Below, piece after piece: positions 8,933 to 34,448 of a DNA stretch of 64,000 nt. This DNA comes from Actinomadura terrae (GTDB lineage: Bacteria; Actinomycetota; Actinomycetes; Streptosporangiales; Streptosporangiaceae), in assembly GCF_022751215.1 (NCBI RefSeq), contig NZ_JAICDG010000007.1, positions 377,643 to 441,642 of the forward strand, in the 5' to 3' direction. Each line of letters starts with the position of its first letter. Position 1 is the first letter of the stretch. The translations under genes and the position numbers were made by a program. The notes below the pieces were generated by a model. That model made no database searches. It saw nothing but the letters and a program-made list of their open reading frames with translations, and was not told the origin of the DNA.

Positions 8933-9904
8933 ATGGGTTTGTGGGAGATCAATACCGACACGCTCGCGGGCAGCCGGTTCCTGGTGTCCCCGCTGGCGGA
9001 GACCCTCGCGACGCTGAAGGCGCTGGAACGCGCCAGCGCGGCGCATCCGGCCGAGCGCGCGTGGCTCGACCGCCACCTGCCCGCCTACCGGAGGCGGCTG
9101 GCCGATGATCCGCTGACCGCGCTGACGATCCGGGCGGCGCTCGGCCCGACCTGGAACGCCGACTACCTCACTCCCCCGCCCGTCCACGAGGGCGAGACGA
9201 GCTTCGCCGAGGAGCTGCGCCCCATCCGCGAGACGCCGCCGGACGTCGCGCGCGAGCACCTGACGGTGTCGCTCGGCGGTCCGCTGCCTCCCGAGCTGCA
9301 CCGCGACGACCTCCCCGAACGCACCGCCGGGCTGCTGGAGTGGGTGTGGACGCACGCCGTCCTGCCGGACTGGCCGCGGCGGCGCCGGATCATCGAGGCC
9401 GACGTCCTGGCGCGCACCGCGCAGCTCAGCCGGGACGGCTGGGCCGGGCTCCTGGACGGCCTGCGCCCCGGCATGCGCTGGCTCGGCGGGAGCCGCCTCC
9501 AGGTCAACACCCACGACTACCCGCCGCGCGCGGTGACGGGCGCCCGGCTGATGTTCGTCCCGGTCACGCCCCGGTACGGCTGGACCGCCTGGGACGCGGC
9601 GTGGCGCCGCTTCGCGCTCATCTACCCCTGTTCGGGCACGCTGGCCGGGGCGGAGGGCCCGGTGCCCGAGGCGCTCGGCCGGCTGCTCGGCGCGGGACGC
9701 GCGCGCGTCCTGGTCCTGCTCGACACGCCGAAGAGCACGACCCAGCTCGTCGCGCTGACCGGGCAGGGCCTCGGGTCGGTGGGCCGCCACCTGCGGCTGC
9801 TGCTCGACGCGCGCCTGGTCGCACGGCGGCGGACGGGCCGCTCGGTCCTCTACTACCGCACGGCCGCCGGGGACGTCCTGGTCACGGCCCAGCGGGACAC
9901 CTGA
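8933..9904 (+). CDS. ArsR-family winged-helix regulator with N-terminal sensor domain
   Basis: A 323-residue protein. Residues 1 to about 240 form a domain of the type found in DUF5937 proteins (MGLWEINTDTLAGSRFLVSPLAETLATLKAL). The last 70 residues contain an ArsR-like winged helix (VLLDTPKSTTQLVALTGQGLGSVGRHLRLLLDARLVARRRTGRSVLYYRT). No metal-binding cysteine pair is visible in the HTH, so it is not a classical metalloregulator. It is divergent from the MFS gene and probably represses it and itself through the inverted repeat abutting its start. The ATG follows the repeat without a ribosome-binding site, so the message may be leaderless. Confidence 0.8.
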   Translation: MGLWEINTDTLAGSRFLVSPLAETLATLKALERASAAHPAERAWLDRHLPAYRRRLADDPLTALTIRAALGPTWNADYLTPPPVHEGETSFAEELRPIRETPPDVAREHLTVSLGGPLPPELHRDDLPERTAGLLEWVWTHAVLPDWPRRRRIIEADVLARTAQLSRDGWAGLLDGLRPGMRWLGGSRLQVNTHDYPPRAVTGARLMFVPVTPRYGWTAWDAAWRRFALIYPCSGTLAGAEGPVPEALGRLLGAGRARVLVLLDTPKSTTQLVALTGQGLGSVGRHLRLLLDARLVARRRTGRSVLYYRTAAGDVLVTAQRDT

Positions 9905-9975: not shown

Positions 9976-10914
9976 TCAGCGGCTCACGGGGGTCTCCCGT
10001 TCCACGCGGGACAGCTTCTCGGGGTTGCGGACGTGGTAGGCGCCGGTGACGTAGCCGTTCTCCAGGCGCACCGCCACCACTCCGTCGACCTCCCCGTTGA
10101 CGCGGACGAGCAGCCCCGGGCCGCCGTTGATCTGGACGAGCTCGACCGACCTCTCGGCGTCGCGCCTCCACCAGCCGACGGCGAGGAGACGCGCGACGTT
10201 GTCGGCACCCACGACGGGACGCAGCAGGGCGTGCTTGACCCCGCCTCCGTCGCTGAGGGCGACGACGTCCGGTGCGAGGATGTCGAGCAGGTTCTGCAGG
10301 TCGCCGGTTTCGACCGCTCGCTGGAACGCCTGGAGCGCGGTTCGGGTCTCGGCCGGGGAGGCGACGCCGCGGGGACGGCGCGCGGCGACGTGGGCGCGGG
10401 CGCGGTAGGCGAGCTGGCGGACCGCGGCGGGACTCTTGTCGACGGCTTCGGCGATCTCCTGGTATTCGAGACCGAACACCTCGTGCAGCACGAACACCGC
10501 CCGTTCGGTGGGCTGGAGCGTCTCCAGGACCAGCAGCATCGCCATCGAGACACTGTCGGCGAGCTCGACGTCCTCGGCCACGTCGGGCGTGGTCAGCAGC
10601 GGTTCGGGCAGCCAGGGGCCGACGTAGGACTCCTTGCGCCGGCCGAGCGCGCGTAGCCGGTCGAGCGACTTGCGGGTGACGATCCGCACCAGGTATGCCC
10701 GCCGCTCCCGGACAGTGGCCAGATCGACGTCCACCCACCGCAGCCAACTCTCCTGGAGGACGTCTTCGGCGTCGGTGGCCGAGCCGAGCATCTCGTAGGC
10801 GACGGTGAACAGCAGGTTACGGTGCGCGACGAACGCCTCGGTGGCCGCGTCCATGCCGTCGGCACGGTCGCGTGGCCCGGCCGCGTCCGTGGATCGTTCG
10901 CTGCGCTCGTCCAT
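9976..10914 (-). CDS. sigJ: ECF41-type sigma factor SigJ with C-terminal SnoaL-like domain
   Basis: A 312-residue sigma factor: region 2 (AFVAHRNLLFTVAYEMLGSATDAEDVLQESWLRW), linker with WLPEPL, region 4 (LQPTERAVFVLHEVFGLEYQEIAEAVDKSPAAVRQLAYRARAHV), then a SnoaL-like C-terminal extension from about residue 205 carrying DGGG-K and NPEKL. WLPEPL, DGGG-K and NPEKL are hallmark motifs of the ECF41 group, in which the fused C-terminal domain modulates sigma activity in place of a separate anti-sigma factor. ECF41 genes are usually next to a carboxymuconolactone decarboxylase, oxidoreductase or epimerase; here both a CMD and an epimerase gene lie divergently. CAGGAG precedes the ATG at 10914. An autoregulatory promoter is visible upstream. 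Confidence 0.92.
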   Translation of the reverse strand: MDERSERSTDAAGPRDRADGMDAATEAFVAHRNLLFTVAYEMLGSATDAEDVLQESWLRWVDVDLATVRERRAYLVRIVTRKSLDRLRALGRRKESYVGPWLPEPLLTTPDVAEDVELADSVSMAMLLVLETLQPTERAVFVLHEVFGLEYQEIAEAVDKSPAAVRQLAYRARAHVAARRPRGVASPAETRTALQAFQRAVETGDLQNLLDILAPDVVALSDGGGVKHALLRPVVGADNVARLLAVGWWRRDAERSVELVQINGGPGLLVRVNGEVDGVVAVRLENGYVTGAYHVRNPEKLSRVERETPVSR

Positions 10915-10954
10915 GCCCGACTCCTGTTCGCTCGTACCCCTGGCTCACGCACGA

Positions 10955-10981
10955 GACGCCGGCCCTCTCCGCTTTGTAACA
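10955..10981 (-). promoter_or_regulatory. ECF41-type promoter of sigJ
   Basis: Read on the minus strand: -35 TGTTACA (10975-10981), exactly 16 bases, -10 CGTC (10955-10958). It has the same pattern and spacing as the divergent promoter and both promoters of the second sigma/CMD module. Confidence 0.7.
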
Positions 10982-11015
10982 CCTGGTCCCGGTGGCCTAC
11001 GTCACAGGGCCACGC

Positions 11016-11042
11016 TGTTACGGCCCTGGGGGCGCCGGCGTC
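11016..11042 (+). promoter_or_regulatory. ECF41-type promoter of the CMD-NmrA operon
   Basis: -35 TGTTACG (11016-11022), 16 bases, -10 CGTC (11039-11042), about 50 bases before the ATG at 11090. It resembles the GTCACA/CGTC promoters reported for SigJ/ECF41 proteins, with T in place of C at one position. Confidence 0.7.
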
Positions 11043-11089
11043 TCGTGTTCGTCAGGACGCCATGAGTCGAACCCGAGAGAAGGAAGACC

Positions 11090-11596
11090 ATGCCCGCACA
11101 CACCCAGGCCGAGCAGGAGGGCCGGCGGTCGCGCATGCCGGAACCCGTCCAGTTCCTCCCCGAAATGGTCGAGATCGCAGGGCCCCTGCACAAGGTCATT
11201 CAGAACGGCGTTGTTCCACGGGTCACCGTCAGCCTGATGCATCTCCGCGCGGGACAGATTCTGGGAAGCACGTACTTCACCATTCGGGAAACCGCCAACC
11301 TCCGCGAGATGGGGGAACCGGAGGAGCGCATCACCGCCGTGGCGACGTGGCAGGACGCCGCCTACTACAGCGATGCCGAACGAGTCGCGCTGGAACTGGT
11401 GGAGGCGGTCCTCACGCCGTCCCCGTCCGGGGAGCGCGTCCCGGACGAGCTGCACGCCAAGGCAGCCGAGCATTACGACGACAGGGCGCTCTGGACGCTC
11501 ATCATGGCGATCGCCCACATCGGCTTCTTCACCCCCGCGGCGCTCATCGCCAAGCCGATCCCCGGTATGCCTCCCGGCCAGAATTACAGCGCGTGA
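11090..11596 (+). CDS. Carboxymuconolactone decarboxylase-like (AhpD fold) protein lacking the CxxC
   Basis: A 168-residue protein with the CMD/AhpD helical fold: LRAGQILGSTYFTIRETANLREMG, then ATWQDAAYYSDAERVALELVEAVL and GERVPDELHAKAAEHYDD. In redox-active AhpD-like relatives the helix after LRA-QI carries a CxxC-xxH motif; here that stretch reads GSTYFTIRE, with no cysteine anywhere in the helix, so peroxidase-type chemistry is not possible. The chain end (AALIAKPIPGMP) keeps the family C-terminus. GAGAAGGAAG precedes the ATG. It heads an operon with an NmrA-like epimerase (14 bases apart) and is divergent from sigJ. A close relative is at 33305-33775 in the same context. Confidence 0.85.
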   Translation: MPAHTQAEQEGRRSRMPEPVQFLPEMVEIAGPLHKVIQNGVVPRVTVSLMHLRAGQILGSTYFTIRETANLREMGEPEERITAVATWQDAAYYSDAERVALELVEAVLTPSPSGERVPDELHAKAAEHYDDRALWTLIMAIAHIGFFTPAALIAKPIPGMPPGQNYSA

Positions 11597-11610: not shown

Positions 11611-12363
11611 ATGAGCAGATTCGCAGTGGCGGGAGCGACCGGCCGGTTGGGACGCCACGTCGTCGACGTCCTCACCGAACGAGGGCACCAGGTCGTTCCG
11701 ATGTCCAGGGCCACCGGCGTGGACATCATCACCGGTGAGGGTCTGGCCGAGGCGCTCGCCGGGACCGAGATCGTCATCGACGTCGCCTCGTGGCACGCCT
11801 CAGATCAGGACGCCGCCACGGAGTTCTTCACGACGTCGGCCGCCAACCTGCACGAGCACGGTGAGAAGGCGGGGGCCGCGCGGATCGTCATGGCGTCCAT
11901 CATCGGTGCCGACAAGGCGACCGCCGGGTTCGTCGCCGCCAAGAAGGCGCACGAGGAACTCCTCCTGTCCGGCCCGCTCCCCGTTCGCATTCTCCGGGCC
12001 GCGCAGTTCCACGAATTCGTCGGGCAGTTCCTGGACTGGCGGCAGGGTGAAGTCGCCTATGTTCCGGCGTTGCCGACCCAACTCGTGGCCTGCCGCACCG
12101 TGGCCGAGGTCCTGGTCGACCTGGCCCTCGAACCAGGCGAGCCCGCTCCGGGAGCACCGATCCCCGAGGTCGCCGGGCCCCGCACGGAGACCATGGCGGA
12201 GGCGGCGGCGCTCCTCGGCGCCCGCCGAGGCGTCAAGGTCGTCGGCGTCGACGGCTCGGGCATGCCCGACGCCGAGATCGCCGCCGAGGGCGGGTTCCTG
12301 CCCGGCCCGCACGCCGTCCTCGCCGGCCCCACCTTCCGGGAGTGGCTCGACGCCCAGCCCTGA
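11611..12363 (+). CDS. NmrA-like NAD(P)-binding SDR/epimerase
   Basis: A 250-residue atypical short-chain dehydrogenase. It starts MSRFAVAGATGRLGRHVVDVL, a Rossmann glycine motif (GATGRLG), and keeps the NmrA-type LRAAQFHEFV helix and a substrate-loop C-terminus. The classical YxxxK pair is not evident, as usual for NmrA-like proteins, which act as redox sensors or atypical reductases. It follows the CMD gene by 14 bases, giving the CMD plus epimerase pair typical of ECF41 neighbourhoods. It is probably transcribed from the SigJ-type promoter. Confidence 0.85.
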   Translation: MSRFAVAGATGRLGRHVVDVLTERGHQVVPMSRATGVDIITGEGLAEALAGTEIVIDVASWHASDQDAATEFFTTSAANLHEHGEKAGAARIVMASIIGADKATAGFVAAKKAHEELLLSGPLPVRILRAAQFHEFVGQFLDWRQGEVAYVPALPTQLVACRTVAEVLVDLALEPGEPAPGAPIPEVAGPRTETMAEAAALLGARRGVKVVGVDGSGMPDAEIAAEGGFLPGPHAVLAGPTFREWLDAQP

Positions 12364-12416
12364 CCCGGCCGTGTCACGGTCTCCCCCACAACCTCACTTC
12401 GGAAAGAGAGCTGTTC

Positions 12417-13001
12417 ATGCCCGTCACCACGATCGACTCCACGACCGCGCTCGTCCTCATCGACCTGCAGAACGCCATCGTGGCCCGTCCCGCGACTCCC
12501 CTCACCGGCGCCGAGGTCGTGGCCCGTGCGGTCGCATTGGCCGACGCCTTCCGCTCCCACGAGGCTCCGGTCGTCCTGGTCCGGGTCACGGCGCGGGCGG
12601 ACGGCTCGGACGCGGCTCCGGGACGCACCGAGACCCCGCGCCCGCCCGGCTCCCTGCCCGCGGGCTGGGACGCCATCGTCGACGACCTGGCCGGCCACCC
12701 CGACGACATCACCGTGACCAAACGCTCCTTCAACGCGTTCTACGGCACCGATCTCGACCTGCAACTGCGCCGCCGCGGCGTCACCCAGGTCGTGCTGGCC
12801 GGGATCGCCACCAGCATCGGCGTGGACTCCACCGCCCGCGCCGCCTACGAACACGGCTACAACGTCACGCTGGCGACCGACGCCATGACCGATCTGCGCG
12901 TGGAGGCACATCGCAACAGCATCGAACGGATCTTCCCGCTGCTCGGTGAGAGCGCCACCACCGCCGAGATCATCGACCTGCTGGCCAAGACCCGTGTCTG
13001 A
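12417..13001 (+). CDS. Isochorismatase-family hydrolase without the catalytic cysteine
   Basis: A 194-residue alpha/beta protein of the cysteine-hydrolase/isochorismatase superfamily: LVLIDLQNAI carries the acidic residue, VTKRSFNAFYGTDLD the conserved Lys. The nucleophile elbow, usually I-C-V in GVAT-ICVE, reads GIATSIGVDSTARAAYEHG, with Gly in place of Cys, as in true isochorismatases rather than the amidase members. The fold therefore suggests hydrolysis without a covalent thioester, or a binding role. It lies 53 bases downstream of the NmrA gene and may belong to the same transcript. GGAAAGAGAG precedes the ATG. Confidence 0.85.
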   Translation: MPVTTIDSTTALVLIDLQNAIVARPATPLTGAEVVARAVALADAFRSHEAPVVLVRVTARADGSDAAPGRTETPRPPGSLPAGWDAIVDDLAGHPDDITVTKRSFNAFYGTDLDLQLRRRGVTQVVLAGIATSIGVDSTARAAYEHGYNVTLATDAMTDLRVEAHRNSIERIFPLLGESATTAEIIDLLAKTRV

Positions 13002-32273: not shown

Positions 32274-33146
32274 TCACGCGACCCAGGAGGGGACGACCTG
32301 CTCCAGCCGGGCCGGGTCGTTGAGGGTGCGGATCGCGGTGACCACGCCGCCGGTGACCGTGAAGGCCATCACCGTGACCGGCCGTCCCTCGACGGTGATG
32401 AGCACCCCGGGAACGCCGCCGACGAGCGCCGGGTGCACCCGCGCGTCCGGACGCGCGAACATCGTCGCCCGGGCCGCGATCTTGTCCGCGCCCCGCACGA
32501 CGAAGTCGCCCTCCAGCCCCTGGGCGCGCACCTCGACGTCGGGCGCGAGCACGCTGAGCAGCCCGGCGACGTCGCCCCGGCCGGCCGCCGCGAAGAACGC
32601 CTCGACGACCTCGCGGCCCGCGGCGTGGGAGTCGGGCGAGGGCGTGCCCGACCGCAGCCGTCCGCGGGCCCGGCTGGCGAGCATCTTCGAGGCCGCGGTG
32701 CTCCGTCCGAGGACGGCCGCGATCGTGTCGAACGGCACCTCGAAGACATCGTGCAGGACGAACGACACCCGCTCCGCCGGGGTGAGCGCGTCCATGACGA
32801 CGTACAGCGCCAGCCCGACCGATTCGGCCAGCACCGCCTCCTGCTCGGGGTCGAGCCGGGAGTCGGCGAGCGGCTCCCGCTGGAGCGCGCCGATGTCGAA
32901 CTCCAGCGGCTGCTCGCCCCGCGTCCCGCGCCGGCGCAGCGCGTCCAGGCAGATCCGGCCCGTCACCGTGGTCAGCCAGCCGCGCAGGTCCTCGATGTCG
33001 CCGCCGCCGTTCCGCACGAGCCGCAGCCACGCCTCCTGGACGGCGTCGTCGGCGTCCGCGTGCGACCCGAGCACGCGGAAGGCGATCGCGTGCAGATAAG
33101 GGCGCTGGCCCTCGAATCTCGCGGCGAGCTGTTCCTCTTCGGTCAC
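32274..33146 (-). CDS. ECF sigma factor with SnoaL-like C-terminal domain (SigJ/SigI-like)
   Basis: A 290-residue sigma factor: region 2 (FEGQRPYLHAIAFRVLGSHADADDAVQEAWLRL), region 4 (LTPAERVSFVLHDVFEVPFDTIAAVLGRSTAASKMLASRARGRL) and a SnoaL-like extension from about residue 180 (VVEAFFAAAGRGDVAGLLSVLAPDVEVRA). The ECF41 hallmarks WLPEPL and DGGG-K are absent; the tail has LNDPARLEQV in place of NP-KL. So it is a divergent relative of the sigJ product at 9976. GTG start with AGGGGGAA upstream. It is divergent from a CMD-like gene, the same arrangement as at 10-11.6 kb, and its own promoter has the same motif. Confidence 0.88.
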   Translation of the reverse strand: MTEEEQLAARFEGQRPYLHAIAFRVLGSHADADDAVQEAWLRLVRNGGGDIEDLRGWLTTVTGRICLDALRRRGTRGEQPLEFDIGALQREPLADSRLDPEQEAVLAESVGLALYVVMDALTPAERVSFVLHDVFEVPFDTIAAVLGRSTAASKMLASRARGRLRSGTPSPDSHAAGREVVEAFFAAAGRGDVAGLLSVLAPDVEVRAQGLEGDFVVRGADKIAARATMFARPDARVHPALVGGVPGVLITVEGRPVTVMAFTVTGGVVTAIRTLNDPARLEQVVPSWVA

Positions 33147-33180: not shown

Positions 33181-33207
33181 GACGCACCAGGCGGCCGTGA
33201 GGTAACG
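33181..33207 (-). promoter_or_regulatory. ECF41-type promoter of the second sigma gene
   Basis: Minus-strand -35 CGTTACC (33201-33207), 16 bases, -10 CGTC (33181-33184), about 35 bases upstream of the GTG start. Its -35 and that of the opposite promoter form an 8-bp inverted repeat, AGGTAACG-N11-CGTTACCT. Confidence 0.7.
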
Positions 33208-33218
33208 CACCTTTCGGA

Positions 33219-33245
33219 CGTTACCTTTCGCCGCGCCCGGACGTC
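33219..33245 (+). promoter_or_regulatory. ECF41-type promoter of the second CMD gene
   Basis: -35 CGTTACC (33219-33225), 16 bases, -10 CGTC (33242-33245), 59 bases before the ATG at 33305. Same pattern and spacing as the other three promoters of the two sigma/CMD modules. Confidence 0.7.
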
Positions 33246-33304: not shown

Positions 33305-33775
33305 ATGGGATCGCGGATGTCCAACCCCACCGTTCTCGTACCCGAACTCATACCGGTGGCGGGCGCGCTGGCCAAGGCCACCGGCAACGGCTCGCTGCCG
33401 GGGACCCCGATGGGCCTGGCCGGCCTGCGCGTCGCCCAGATCGTCGGCAGCACCTACCTGGTCATCCGGTCCACCAAGGCGCTGCGTGAGGCCGGGGAGT
33501 CCGAGGAGCGGATCGCCGCCGTGGCGTCCTGGCGGAACGCGCCCTACTTCACGGGCCCCGAGCAGGCGGCGCTGGCGCTGGCGGAGGCGGTGTTCCAGCC
33601 GGCGGCCGAAGGCGAGCGGGTCTCCGACGCGCTGTACGCGGAGGCGGCCGCGCACTTCGACGAGAAGGAGCTGGCCACGCTGATGATCGGGATCGGCCAG
33701 GTCGCCTTCTGGGCCACCGTCGCGCTCATCGGCAAGCCGGTTCCGGGCGTCGCCGAAGCGGAGACGTGGAGCTGA
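33305..33775 (+). CDS. Carboxymuconolactone decarboxylase-like protein lacking the CxxC (paralogue)
   Basis: A 156-residue CMD/AhpD-fold protein, clearly related to that at 11090-11596: LRVAQIVGSTYLVIRSTKALREAGESEERIAAVASWRNAPYF, GERVSDALYAEAAAHFDEKELATL, and the tail ALIGKPVPGVAEAETWS. As in the paralogue, the redox CxxC-xxH helix reads GSTYLVIRS, without any cysteine. AGGAGG precedes the ATG. Driven by the promoter at 33219-33245, divergent from the sigma gene at 32274. A very strong terminator follows. The role is unknown; a non-redox binding or regulatory function is inferred. Confidence 0.85.
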   Translation: MGSRMSNPTVLVPELIPVAGALAKATGNGSLPGTPMGLAGLRVAQIVGSTYLVIRSTKALREAGESEERIAAVASWRNAPYFTGPEQAALALAEAVFQPAAEGERVSDALYAEAAAHFDEKELATLMIGIGQVAFWATVALIGKPVPGVAEAETWS

Positions 33776-33954: not shown

Positions 33955-34009
33955 TTAGGCTAGCCTATCCTTAGTAAAGTTAGTCTATCCTAAATAAGGT
34001 TCGCCTAAG
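33955..34009. promoter_or_regulatory. Three tandem IdeR/DmdR-type iron boxes
   Basis: In an AT-rich patch: box 1 at 33955-33973 (contains palindrome TAGGCTAGCCTA), box 2 at 33975-33993 (AGTTAGTCTATCCTAA), box 3 at 33995-34009 (TAAGGTTCGCCTAAG). By eye boxes 1 and 2 match 15 of 19 positions of the iron-box consensus TTAGGTTAGGCTAACCTAA. Clustered iron boxes precede bfrB in mycobacteria, where IdeR activates. The bacterioferritin gene is the next gene, but about 440 bases away. Confidence 0.7.
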
Positions 34010-34448
34010 AAATTCGGACGGAAATAGATCCTTTCACGGGGTCCGATTGATCGCCATTAACTTGACTGATCGGTTGCGCGGCGCCATGACCATGGACAAC
34101 GTCCAAAGCCACTTGTCAGGAAGCCCGGAAAACTTCATGCCGACTAGAAAGACTCCCGTCATGTTGAAAGGCGCTCCGGCGTGAGATGGTCCGGTATATG
34201 CGAGTGAATTCTGTCGGAATTCATGCACCATCGACTGCCCGACCTGCGGCAAGAGTGTACAGGTCGACGCGAGCCCACGCCTCGGGATCTTCCTCGTTGA
34301 GGAATCCGCGCGCCCCGGTGACGACTCTTTCCGGACCGGCGGAGCCGCCGATCCGCGCAGTTGGCCCCGCGAATTCGCTCGGCGCCGAACATTCAACTCG
34401 AAGTTTCAAACCTGGTCGGGCCCTTCCGCTCGTGTGAGCATCAGCGCC
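34010..34448. other. 439-base intergenic stretch between iron boxes and bacterioferritin
   Basis: No protein gene is recognisable. Third-position GC bias is absent in all frames, and base composition is lower in GC than the neighbours. A 32-codon ORF (34086-34184, MTMDNVQSHLSGSPENF...) exists but has no ribosome-binding site and atypical codons. The stretch may be the long control region of the bacterioferritin gene or the remains of a lost gene. Confidence 0.5.

Follow-up and report, generated by a model that had tools for sequence, protein, structure and literature searches.

Divergent ECF41-type promoter pairs of Actinomadura terrae that are probably read by their adjacent sigma factors

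The window analysed here, a stretch of 64,000 nucleotides of the Actinomadura terrae genome, holds two modules (modules 1 and 2) in which a sigma factor gene and a CMD gene diverge, and in both the gap separating the divergent genes is filled by a pair of promoters. Our main reading, to which we give a probability of about 0.8, is that the adjacent sigma factor reads such a divergent ECF pair and drives its own gene and the partner operon, with a reading code in module 1, insulation of the modules from each other and a Crp-like element at the dyad. What was observed comprises the sites, their conservation, their covariation with the sigma factor (sigma1 type only), a palindrome and the exchange of cargo genes. 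The promoters are most likely of the ECF41 type, and a sigma factor that reads both promoters of its gap would combine positive autoregulation with output. That each sigma drives itself and its partner had been proposed in an earlier, sequence-only reading of this DNA; comparison with relatives supports the proposal, by promoter bases that track contact residues in module 1 and by conservation only in module 2.

The sigma factor of module 1 (sigma1; 9976..10914, minus strand; 312 aa) is of the SigJ/SigX4 (ECF41) type according to its NCBIfam matches (SigX4, 366.5 bits, cut-off 323.25; SigJ, 309.6 bits, cut-off 271) and to a PDB match with Mycobacterium tuberculosis SigJ (5xe7, E 5e-44). The alignment spans residues 26-302 of SigJ and supports a SnoaL-like extension at the C-terminus of sigma1, and a Pfam SnoaL search of the protein gave no match at E 0.001. 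Arg81 and Asp85 lie in region 2 and Tyr170 in the region 4.2 recognition helix, VRQLAYRAR. A WLPEP linker motif is described between regions 2 and 4 of ECF41 factors in the available part of PMC3426412, and sigma1 carries it there (YVGPWLPEPLL). On the plus strand, CMD1 (11090..11596) is a cysteine-free member of the AhpD/CMD family (Pfam CMD, 33.9 bits), and the CMD domain is common to it and its AhpD-like PDB matches (7xw1, 2ijc and 2o4d, the last named PA0269); where these relatives have a CxxC-x3-H stretch CMD1 reads GSTYFTIRE, with the cysteines and the histidine replaced. The closest named relative found, from Actinomadura litoris, is 89% identical. CMD1 is followed by a gene for an NAD(P)-binding epimerase/NmrA-like protein (11611..12363, plus strand; Pfam NAD_binding_10, 37.8 bits), which is probably co-transcribed with it, and by one for an isochorismatase-family hydrolase (12342..13001, plus strand; Pfam Isochorismatase, 148.8 bits; the longest frame is given and the true start may lie further in), possibly the last gene of the operon. 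Downstream of sigma1, the protein encoded at 8933-9904 gives an ArsR/SmtB-like helix-turn-helix match near its C-terminus (NCBIfam HTH_metalloreg, below cut-off).

In module 2, sigma2 (32274..33146, minus strand) is a SigI/SigJ-like ECF factor with a C-terminal SnoaL_2 domain (Pfam, 29.9 bits). It scores below both NCBIfam cut-offs (SigJ, 216.7 of 271 bits; SigI, 205.2 of 317 bits), lacks WLPEP, with IGALQREPL in its place, and has Ser at the place of residue 170. SigJ and SigI are classed as ECF41 in the accessible portion of PMC8999054; because it falls below their cut-offs and lacks WLPEP, we call sigma2 ECF41-like rather than a member of ECF41. Its plus-strand partner, CMD2 (33305..33775), is again a CMD without cysteine (GSTYL; Pfam CMD, 35.5 bits). 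A C-terminally extended sigma factor beside a CMD or epimerase gene is what these modules share with the ECF41/COE modules of PMC3426412, as far as its available text describes them, and a gene of the CMD, oxidoreductase or epimerase kind adjoins the sigma genes of the window; the CxxC of ECF41-linked CMDs is absent from both window CMDs. Downstream of CMD2, AT-rich repeats (TTAGGCTAGCCTATCCTTAGTAAAGTTAGTCTATCC...) stand out at 33955-34009 in this GC-rich genome. We take them to resemble iron boxes of the DtxR/IdeR type, upstream of a bacterioferritin-like frame at 34434.

The sigma-side promoter of module 1 (10955-10981, minus strand) reads TGTTACA-N16-CGTC, with the -35 element at 10975-10981 and the -10 element at 10955-10958, and the cargo-side promoter (11016-11042, plus strand) reads TGTTACG-N16-CGTC. 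Both promoters of module 2 read CGTTACC-N16-CGTC, on the sigma side at 33181-33207 (minus strand) and on the cargo side at 33219-33245 (plus strand). Four ECF41-type promoters with N16 spacing had been claimed; all four could be read directly at these places, and all are kept in relatives. The excerpt of PMC3426412 gives TGTCACA-n16-CGTC as the promoter preceding COE and sigma genes and reports divergent order in 55 cases (15%), with the promoter before the sigma gene in 36 and before the COE gene in 41. Compared with this promoter, the spacing and the -10 element of the window sites agree and the -35 element differs (TGTTAC, CGTTACC). In the portion of the RIViT-seq paper PMC9205884 that was available, no ECF41 promoter motif was found. 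The window has six sites of the pattern YGTYAC-N17-CGTC, whereas shuffled sequences averaged 1.39 and none of 100 gave as many; four of these six sites are the promoters of modules 1 and 2. The genome-wide scan that the sequence-only reading had suggested returned 111 sites across the 9.0-Mb genome and 29 in a reversed control that was not matched in composition. Conservation of the promoters in relatives is more telling than such chance counts. The -10 regions of module 1 (10949-10962 and 11035-11048) share 14 identical bases, GCCGGCGTCTCGTG, and form a long-range inverted repeat.

A search of the genus detected a sigma1-type gene (E <= 1e-100) in 61 of 65 genomes, with 113 matches in total. 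The first set of 87 regions consisted of 70 of these matches (taken strongest first, a few at contig ends omitted) and 17 named loci with a GSTYF CMD. A divergent promoter pair with a gap of 31-36 bp was present in 64 of the 87 sigma1-type upstream regions, the gap measuring 34 bp in 36 of them and 35 bp in another 24. The new set comprised 80 sigma1-type loci, the first 80 outside the genus among the matches listed, one partial match being omitted; 62 of them had a divergent pair, five of these duplicating gaps already included and 57, a poor one among them, being new. The 41 regions in which no pair could be scored (23 of the 87 and 18 of the 80) were dropped prior to counting, as were the five repeats, and removal of one duplicate (L171) and of the poor pair (L318) gave a combined set of 119 modules. 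When the gaps of 15 named GSTYF loci were aligned with those of the window and its within-genome paralog, both promoters stood at near-fixed spacing, and the two sides largely covaried, with TGTTAC/CGTC, TGTCAC/CGTC or TGTCAC/GATC each occurring twice in a gap. Orthologs of sigma2 (E <= 1e-90) were present in 16 of the 65 genus genomes. A both-sided pair was found at 13 of the 16, the -10 always being CGTC and the -35 being CGTTACC in 21 of the 26 promoters; one further ortholog (L165) has a sigma-side promoter only, and in the two most distant (L169 and L170) the sigma-side -35 is CGTTACG and the cargo side shows no credible promoter. Per genome, CGTTACY-N16-CGTC occurred on average 4.8 times in the 16 genomes with sigma2, 3.4 times in the 49 without it and 1.8 times in the reversed control of all 65. 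A large sigma2 regulon beyond module 2 itself was considered and set aside, there being no clear excess of this pattern in the 65 genomes.

Within the sigma1 type, to which the reading code applies, the promoters follow the sigma factor. Alignment of the sigma factors of the first 64 modules gave Tyr at residue 170 in every module with T at -35 base 4 on one or both sides, and His (in one case Arg) in every module with C on both. This training set gave Tyr with at least one T in 22/22 and non-Tyr with C/C in 41/41, and the rule, fixed beforehand, then held for 56 of the 57 new modules from other genera. The exception was L318, in which His accompanies a called T in a poor pair (-10 GAAC, gap 37). 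Over the 119 modules, at least one T accompanies all 41 Tyr170 (32 T/T, 8 mixed T/C and 1 G/T), and C on both sides accompanies all 78 non-Tyr170. Because one side has C in 8 of the 41 Tyr170 modules, besides the G/T case, T is a permitted variant and not an exclusive one. Among residues 20-185, residue 170 is the best separator of the -35 states and the sole complete one (next column 0.79). The paralog of sigma1 in the same genome (C1:179787-180653; 71% identical), which is not included in either set, combines His170 and Thr85 with TGTCAC..CGTC and CGTCACA..CATC promoters and with a CxxC CMD, and fits the rules for both residues. On phylogenies computed with the trait columns removed, five changes of the -35 state and five or six of residue 170 were counted. 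Two to three independent pairs lie on well-supported branches, all in the same direction (sign test, p 0.5 and 0.25, not significant); including weak branches raises the number of independent switch pairs to five.

Residue 85 is tied to -10 base 2 more loosely than residue 170 is to the -35 element. In all 57 Asp85 modules the cargo-side -10 is CGTC and base 2 is G in both promoters, and all 12 Lys85 modules have GATC on the cargo side, with GATC (9), GGTC (2) or CCTC (1) on the sigma side. A residue other than Asp or Lys goes with a cargo-side CATC in 42 of 50 modules, yet with a sigma-side CGTC in 29 of the 50. A strict equivalence of Asp85 and cargo-side CGTC was broken by 6 of the 57 new modules, which pair a non-Asp residue with CGTC. 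Residue 85 is the best separator of the -10 states among residues 20-185.

Both residues fall where structures of other sigma factors place DNA contacts. We take the corresponding helix of sigmaE to be VRSRIFRAR, and its alignment with VRQLAYRAR puts Tyr170 at the place of F175. In our own alignment the G of TGTYAC is G-35 and its AC is -32/-31, which places base 4 at -33. The available part of the SigW/sigmaE study (PMC6713349) has T'-33 contacted by F175 of sigmaE and by H174 of SigW. For the -10 element, the M. tuberculosis SigH structure (PMC6411747, in the portion at hand) shows that N92 contacts the G:C pair at -11 and that the residue four places before it, N88, is replaced by Arg in SigJ; Arg81 and Asp85 of sigma1 have the same spacing as N88 and N92, and Arg81 is invariant in the 119 modules. 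That the covarying pairs are known contact pairs is our main reason for holding that the adjacent sigma factor reads these promoters. In module 1, Tyr170 of the region 4.2 helix would read -35 base 4 (T, position -33) and Asp85 of region 2 would read -10 base 2 (G). A change of the sigma factor at 170 or 85 would be followed by the same kind of change in both promoters, which would explain the match between the two promoters of a module. The C-to-T change had been suggested to define a variant specificity. As -35 base 4 follows residue 170 in the sigma1-type modules, the change is a sigma-linked variant; the association with residue 170 (Tyr, 41/41; non-Tyr, 78/78) supports the suggestion, qualified in that Tyr170 tolerates C and that the tree holds only about five switches.

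The gap of module 1 also contains a dyad element, GTGGCCTACGTCAC (10992..11005), a GTG-N6-GTCAC palindrome that matches GTG(N)6GNCAC. Its centre, 10998.5, is the exact midpoint of the -35 starts at 10981 and 11016, and the element lies about 10 bp from each -35. GTG-N8-CAC was found at most 1 bp from the dyad in 102 of the 119 gaps and was not there in 17, and GTG(N)6GNCAC was at the dyad in 94. The first 64 modules had 53 dyad-centred elements against 0.065 expected from shuffled centres; the 16-bp spacers, which served as a small control because each allows only three start positions, contained no GTG-N8-CAC. Eight copies of the fuller form GTGNNNYANGTCACA are present in the genome and none in the reversed control; by our own reading seven of the eight are intergenic, and the sites include the upstream regions of two lipoprotein-like genes and of an ABC-transporter gene. 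The genome encodes a CRP/FNR protein (open reading frame in L249) near PDB 4byy, 4cyd, 3r6s and 3d0s (E about 1e-84), which reaches 110 of 266 bits, below the cut-off, against the NCBIfam model of E. coli-type CRP. These four structures are presumably GlxR and M. tuberculosis CRP. A GTG-N8-CAC upstream of the Crp homolog frame was given no weight, as about 0.1 would be expected by chance. The accessed text of PMC10033298 gives GTG(N)6GNCAC as the Crp consensus of Streptomyces coelicolor and GTG(N)8CAC as that of GlxR; the Streptomyces Crp and Corynebacterium GlxR sites described there thus have the same patterns as the module 1 dyad, whereas in module 1 the element is centred exactly between two divergent ECF promoters. 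No report of a Crp-like dyad site in ECF41 promoter pairs was found in the open-licence literature searched. Crp is the likeliest binder of the element on this sequence evidence, and a cyclic-AMP-type regulator bound to a Crp/GlxR-like palindrome at the centre of module 1 would probably act on both promoters. Two other uses of the element were rejected: the CGTCACA at its centre lacks a plus-strand CGTC at N16 and is therefore not read as a third -35 element of a second promoter, and the spacing misfits the consensus of a BldD site. Elsewhere in the genome, a CxxC-less CMD gene (GDGYATD; G000:C1:1915242, L241) with no adjoining sigma gene recognised has a dyad element and, about 9-10 bp after it, a CGTCACA-N16-CATC site.

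Two other accounts of the promoters were weighed. The repeats might be operators of transcription factors rather than sigma factor promoters, and the four sites are indeed arranged as inverted repeats, but in bipartite form and spacing they equal the promoter that has been mapped for ECF41 factors of B. licheniformis and R. sphaeroides, and their bases track DNA-contact residues of the sigma factor, so that we regard this reading as very improbable. Shared ancestry could also underlie the covariation, Tyr170 and TGTTAC having been inherited together by chance with no reading of DNA. One part of the tree does hold most Tyr170 modules, and the supported branches carry few independent switches; against this, nested exceptions switch both traits (L178 in the Tyr part, L199 in the His part, and the GATC group), although some of these forks are modestly supported. 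Moreover, the best-separating columns are those that structures put on these bases, and complete -35 separation is reached by no other column. We therefore consider common descent alone to be quite an unlikely source of the pattern, and prefer direct reading by the adjacent sigma factor.

Whether that reading is confined to each module, and by what the dyad is bound, allows further alternatives. Cross-talk between the modules, 22 kb apart, had been predicted, in which case either sigma factor would read all four promoters as one regulon. The overall form, the N16 spacing and the -10 CGTC are common to both modules, some sigma1 modules, among them L175, L181, L268, L270 and L286, carry CGTTAC[AG] as their cargo-side -35, and the G at base 7 on the sigma side of L169 and L170 counters a clean split at that base between the two types. 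However, all 238 promoters of sigma1 modules have a purine at -35 base 7, and one of the 238 has T at base 8, whereas all 26 promoters of the 13 complete sigma2 pairs have a pyrimidine at base 7 and T at base 8. In addition, sigma1 and sigma2 are only 36% identical, with different recognition helices (VRQLAYRAR and SKMLASRAR). Bases 7-8 thus separate sigma1 from sigma2 promoters, the predicted cross-talk was not supported, and we judge a single regulon unlikely. Module 2 would use its own version, CGTTACCT, and as its orthologs have this version too, the two modules are probably insulated, though weak cross-recognition between sigma1- and sigma2-type modules may occur. Each module, including a third GSTY module, matches itself better than the others, which also argues for insulation. 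This third module (C13:932352-933810; L068, G000:C13:929500-937500) is divergent and has a GSTYH CMD; by eye, its promoters read GCTCAC[A/G]-N16-TGTC on both sides, extended to TGTCGGAC, and many of its orthologs in named genomes have, again by eye, CCTCACA-N16-CGTCGGAC-like sites. As for the dyad element, binding by a dimeric regulator other than Crp has close to even odds. Its left half-site (GGTGG) is weak against TGTGA, GTGA-N6-TCAC is contained in only 17 of the 119 gaps, and the HTH_Crp_2 model has 23 matches in the genome, 16 of them over the cut-off. The frequent match to GTG(N)6GNCAC (94/119), and the eight largely intergenic copies of GTGNNNYANGTCACA, as a global regulator could show, speak for Crp instead.

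The cargo genes varied more than the promoters. Classified by short motifs, the cargo of the 70 genus sigma1-type loci comprised 25 MFS exporters, one exporter combined with an epimerase motif, 16 CxxC CMDs, four epimerases, two GSTY CMDs with epimerase, four SDR and five DoxX-like genes; 13 loci were left without a class, of which at least one (L176) is exporter-like by eye. The exporter cargo (25 of 70 loci, 26 with the epimerase-motif one) departs from the three COE classes in the part of PMC3426412 available. Of the 16 sigma2 orthologs, 11 are partnered by a CxxC CMD and two, those of the window genome and of its closest relative, by a GSTYL CMD; CMD2 thus stands where 11 of the 16 orthologous loci have a CxxC CMD. 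Since the cargo varies while the sigma factor and the double promoter persist, the latter two are more stable than the gene they serve. Named loci were also inspected (80 of 142 matches to patterns, one of which contains GSTY, a sample uninformative on the frequency of CxxC loss). A sigma1 ortholog was in divergent position at 15 of 17 GSTYF loci and an ECF41-type sigma factor was in the locus at 35 of 42 GSTYH loci, and none was found in most GSTYL loci of Streptomyces. Many CMDs of the 80 loci have one to three cysteines elsewhere, and 36 have none in the first 167 codons. In L140-L154, mostly from Streptomyces, a GSTYL CMD is accompanied in most cases by a single conserved [GT]GTCACA-N16-CGTC, with no sigma match in the locus. 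A tie between cysteine-less CMDs and TGTTAC was rejected: sigma1 modules with TGTTAC also face exporters and epimerases, and the CGTTACC of sigma2 persists beside CxxC partners. In the text available, Wecke et al. 2012 (PMC3426412) state that CxxC is present in all ECF41-linked CMDs. CMD1 and CMD2 contradict this universal, so the peroxide-defence reading is weaker for these modules.

ECF41 modules as such are known, and what is new here is the reading code, the Crp-like dyad element and the exchangeable cargo, including CxxC-less CMDs. From the modules in the available part of PMC3426412, those of the window differ in their -35 element (TGTTAC or CGTTACC), in their CxxC-less CMDs and in the dyad element. 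Transcription from the module promoters by these sigma factors, and any activating ligand, we infer. ECF41 paralogs are numerous in actinomycetes, and a search of the genome with sigma1 gave 17 matches at E <= 1e-34. To our knowledge no anti-sigma factor of ECF41 regulators has been described. A tentative, rather speculative generalization is that divergent ECF41 modules serve as swappable "ports", in which sigma factor and two-sided promoter would evolve in step through a two-residue code (170 with -33, 85 with -10) that separates the many paralogs of a genome, a Crp dimer exactly at the dyad would gate both directions by cyclic AMP, and the output (CxxC CMD, CxxC-less CMD, exporter or epimerase) would be swapped freely. 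The open-licence literature searched contained no report of a nutritional (Crp) input to ECF41 regulators; the Crp-like dyad site, if true, would be such an input. Two opposite promoters that covary with residues of the adjacent sigma factor form a natural data set that makes promoter specificity directly testable, and this covariation could yield orthogonal sigma-promoter pairs.
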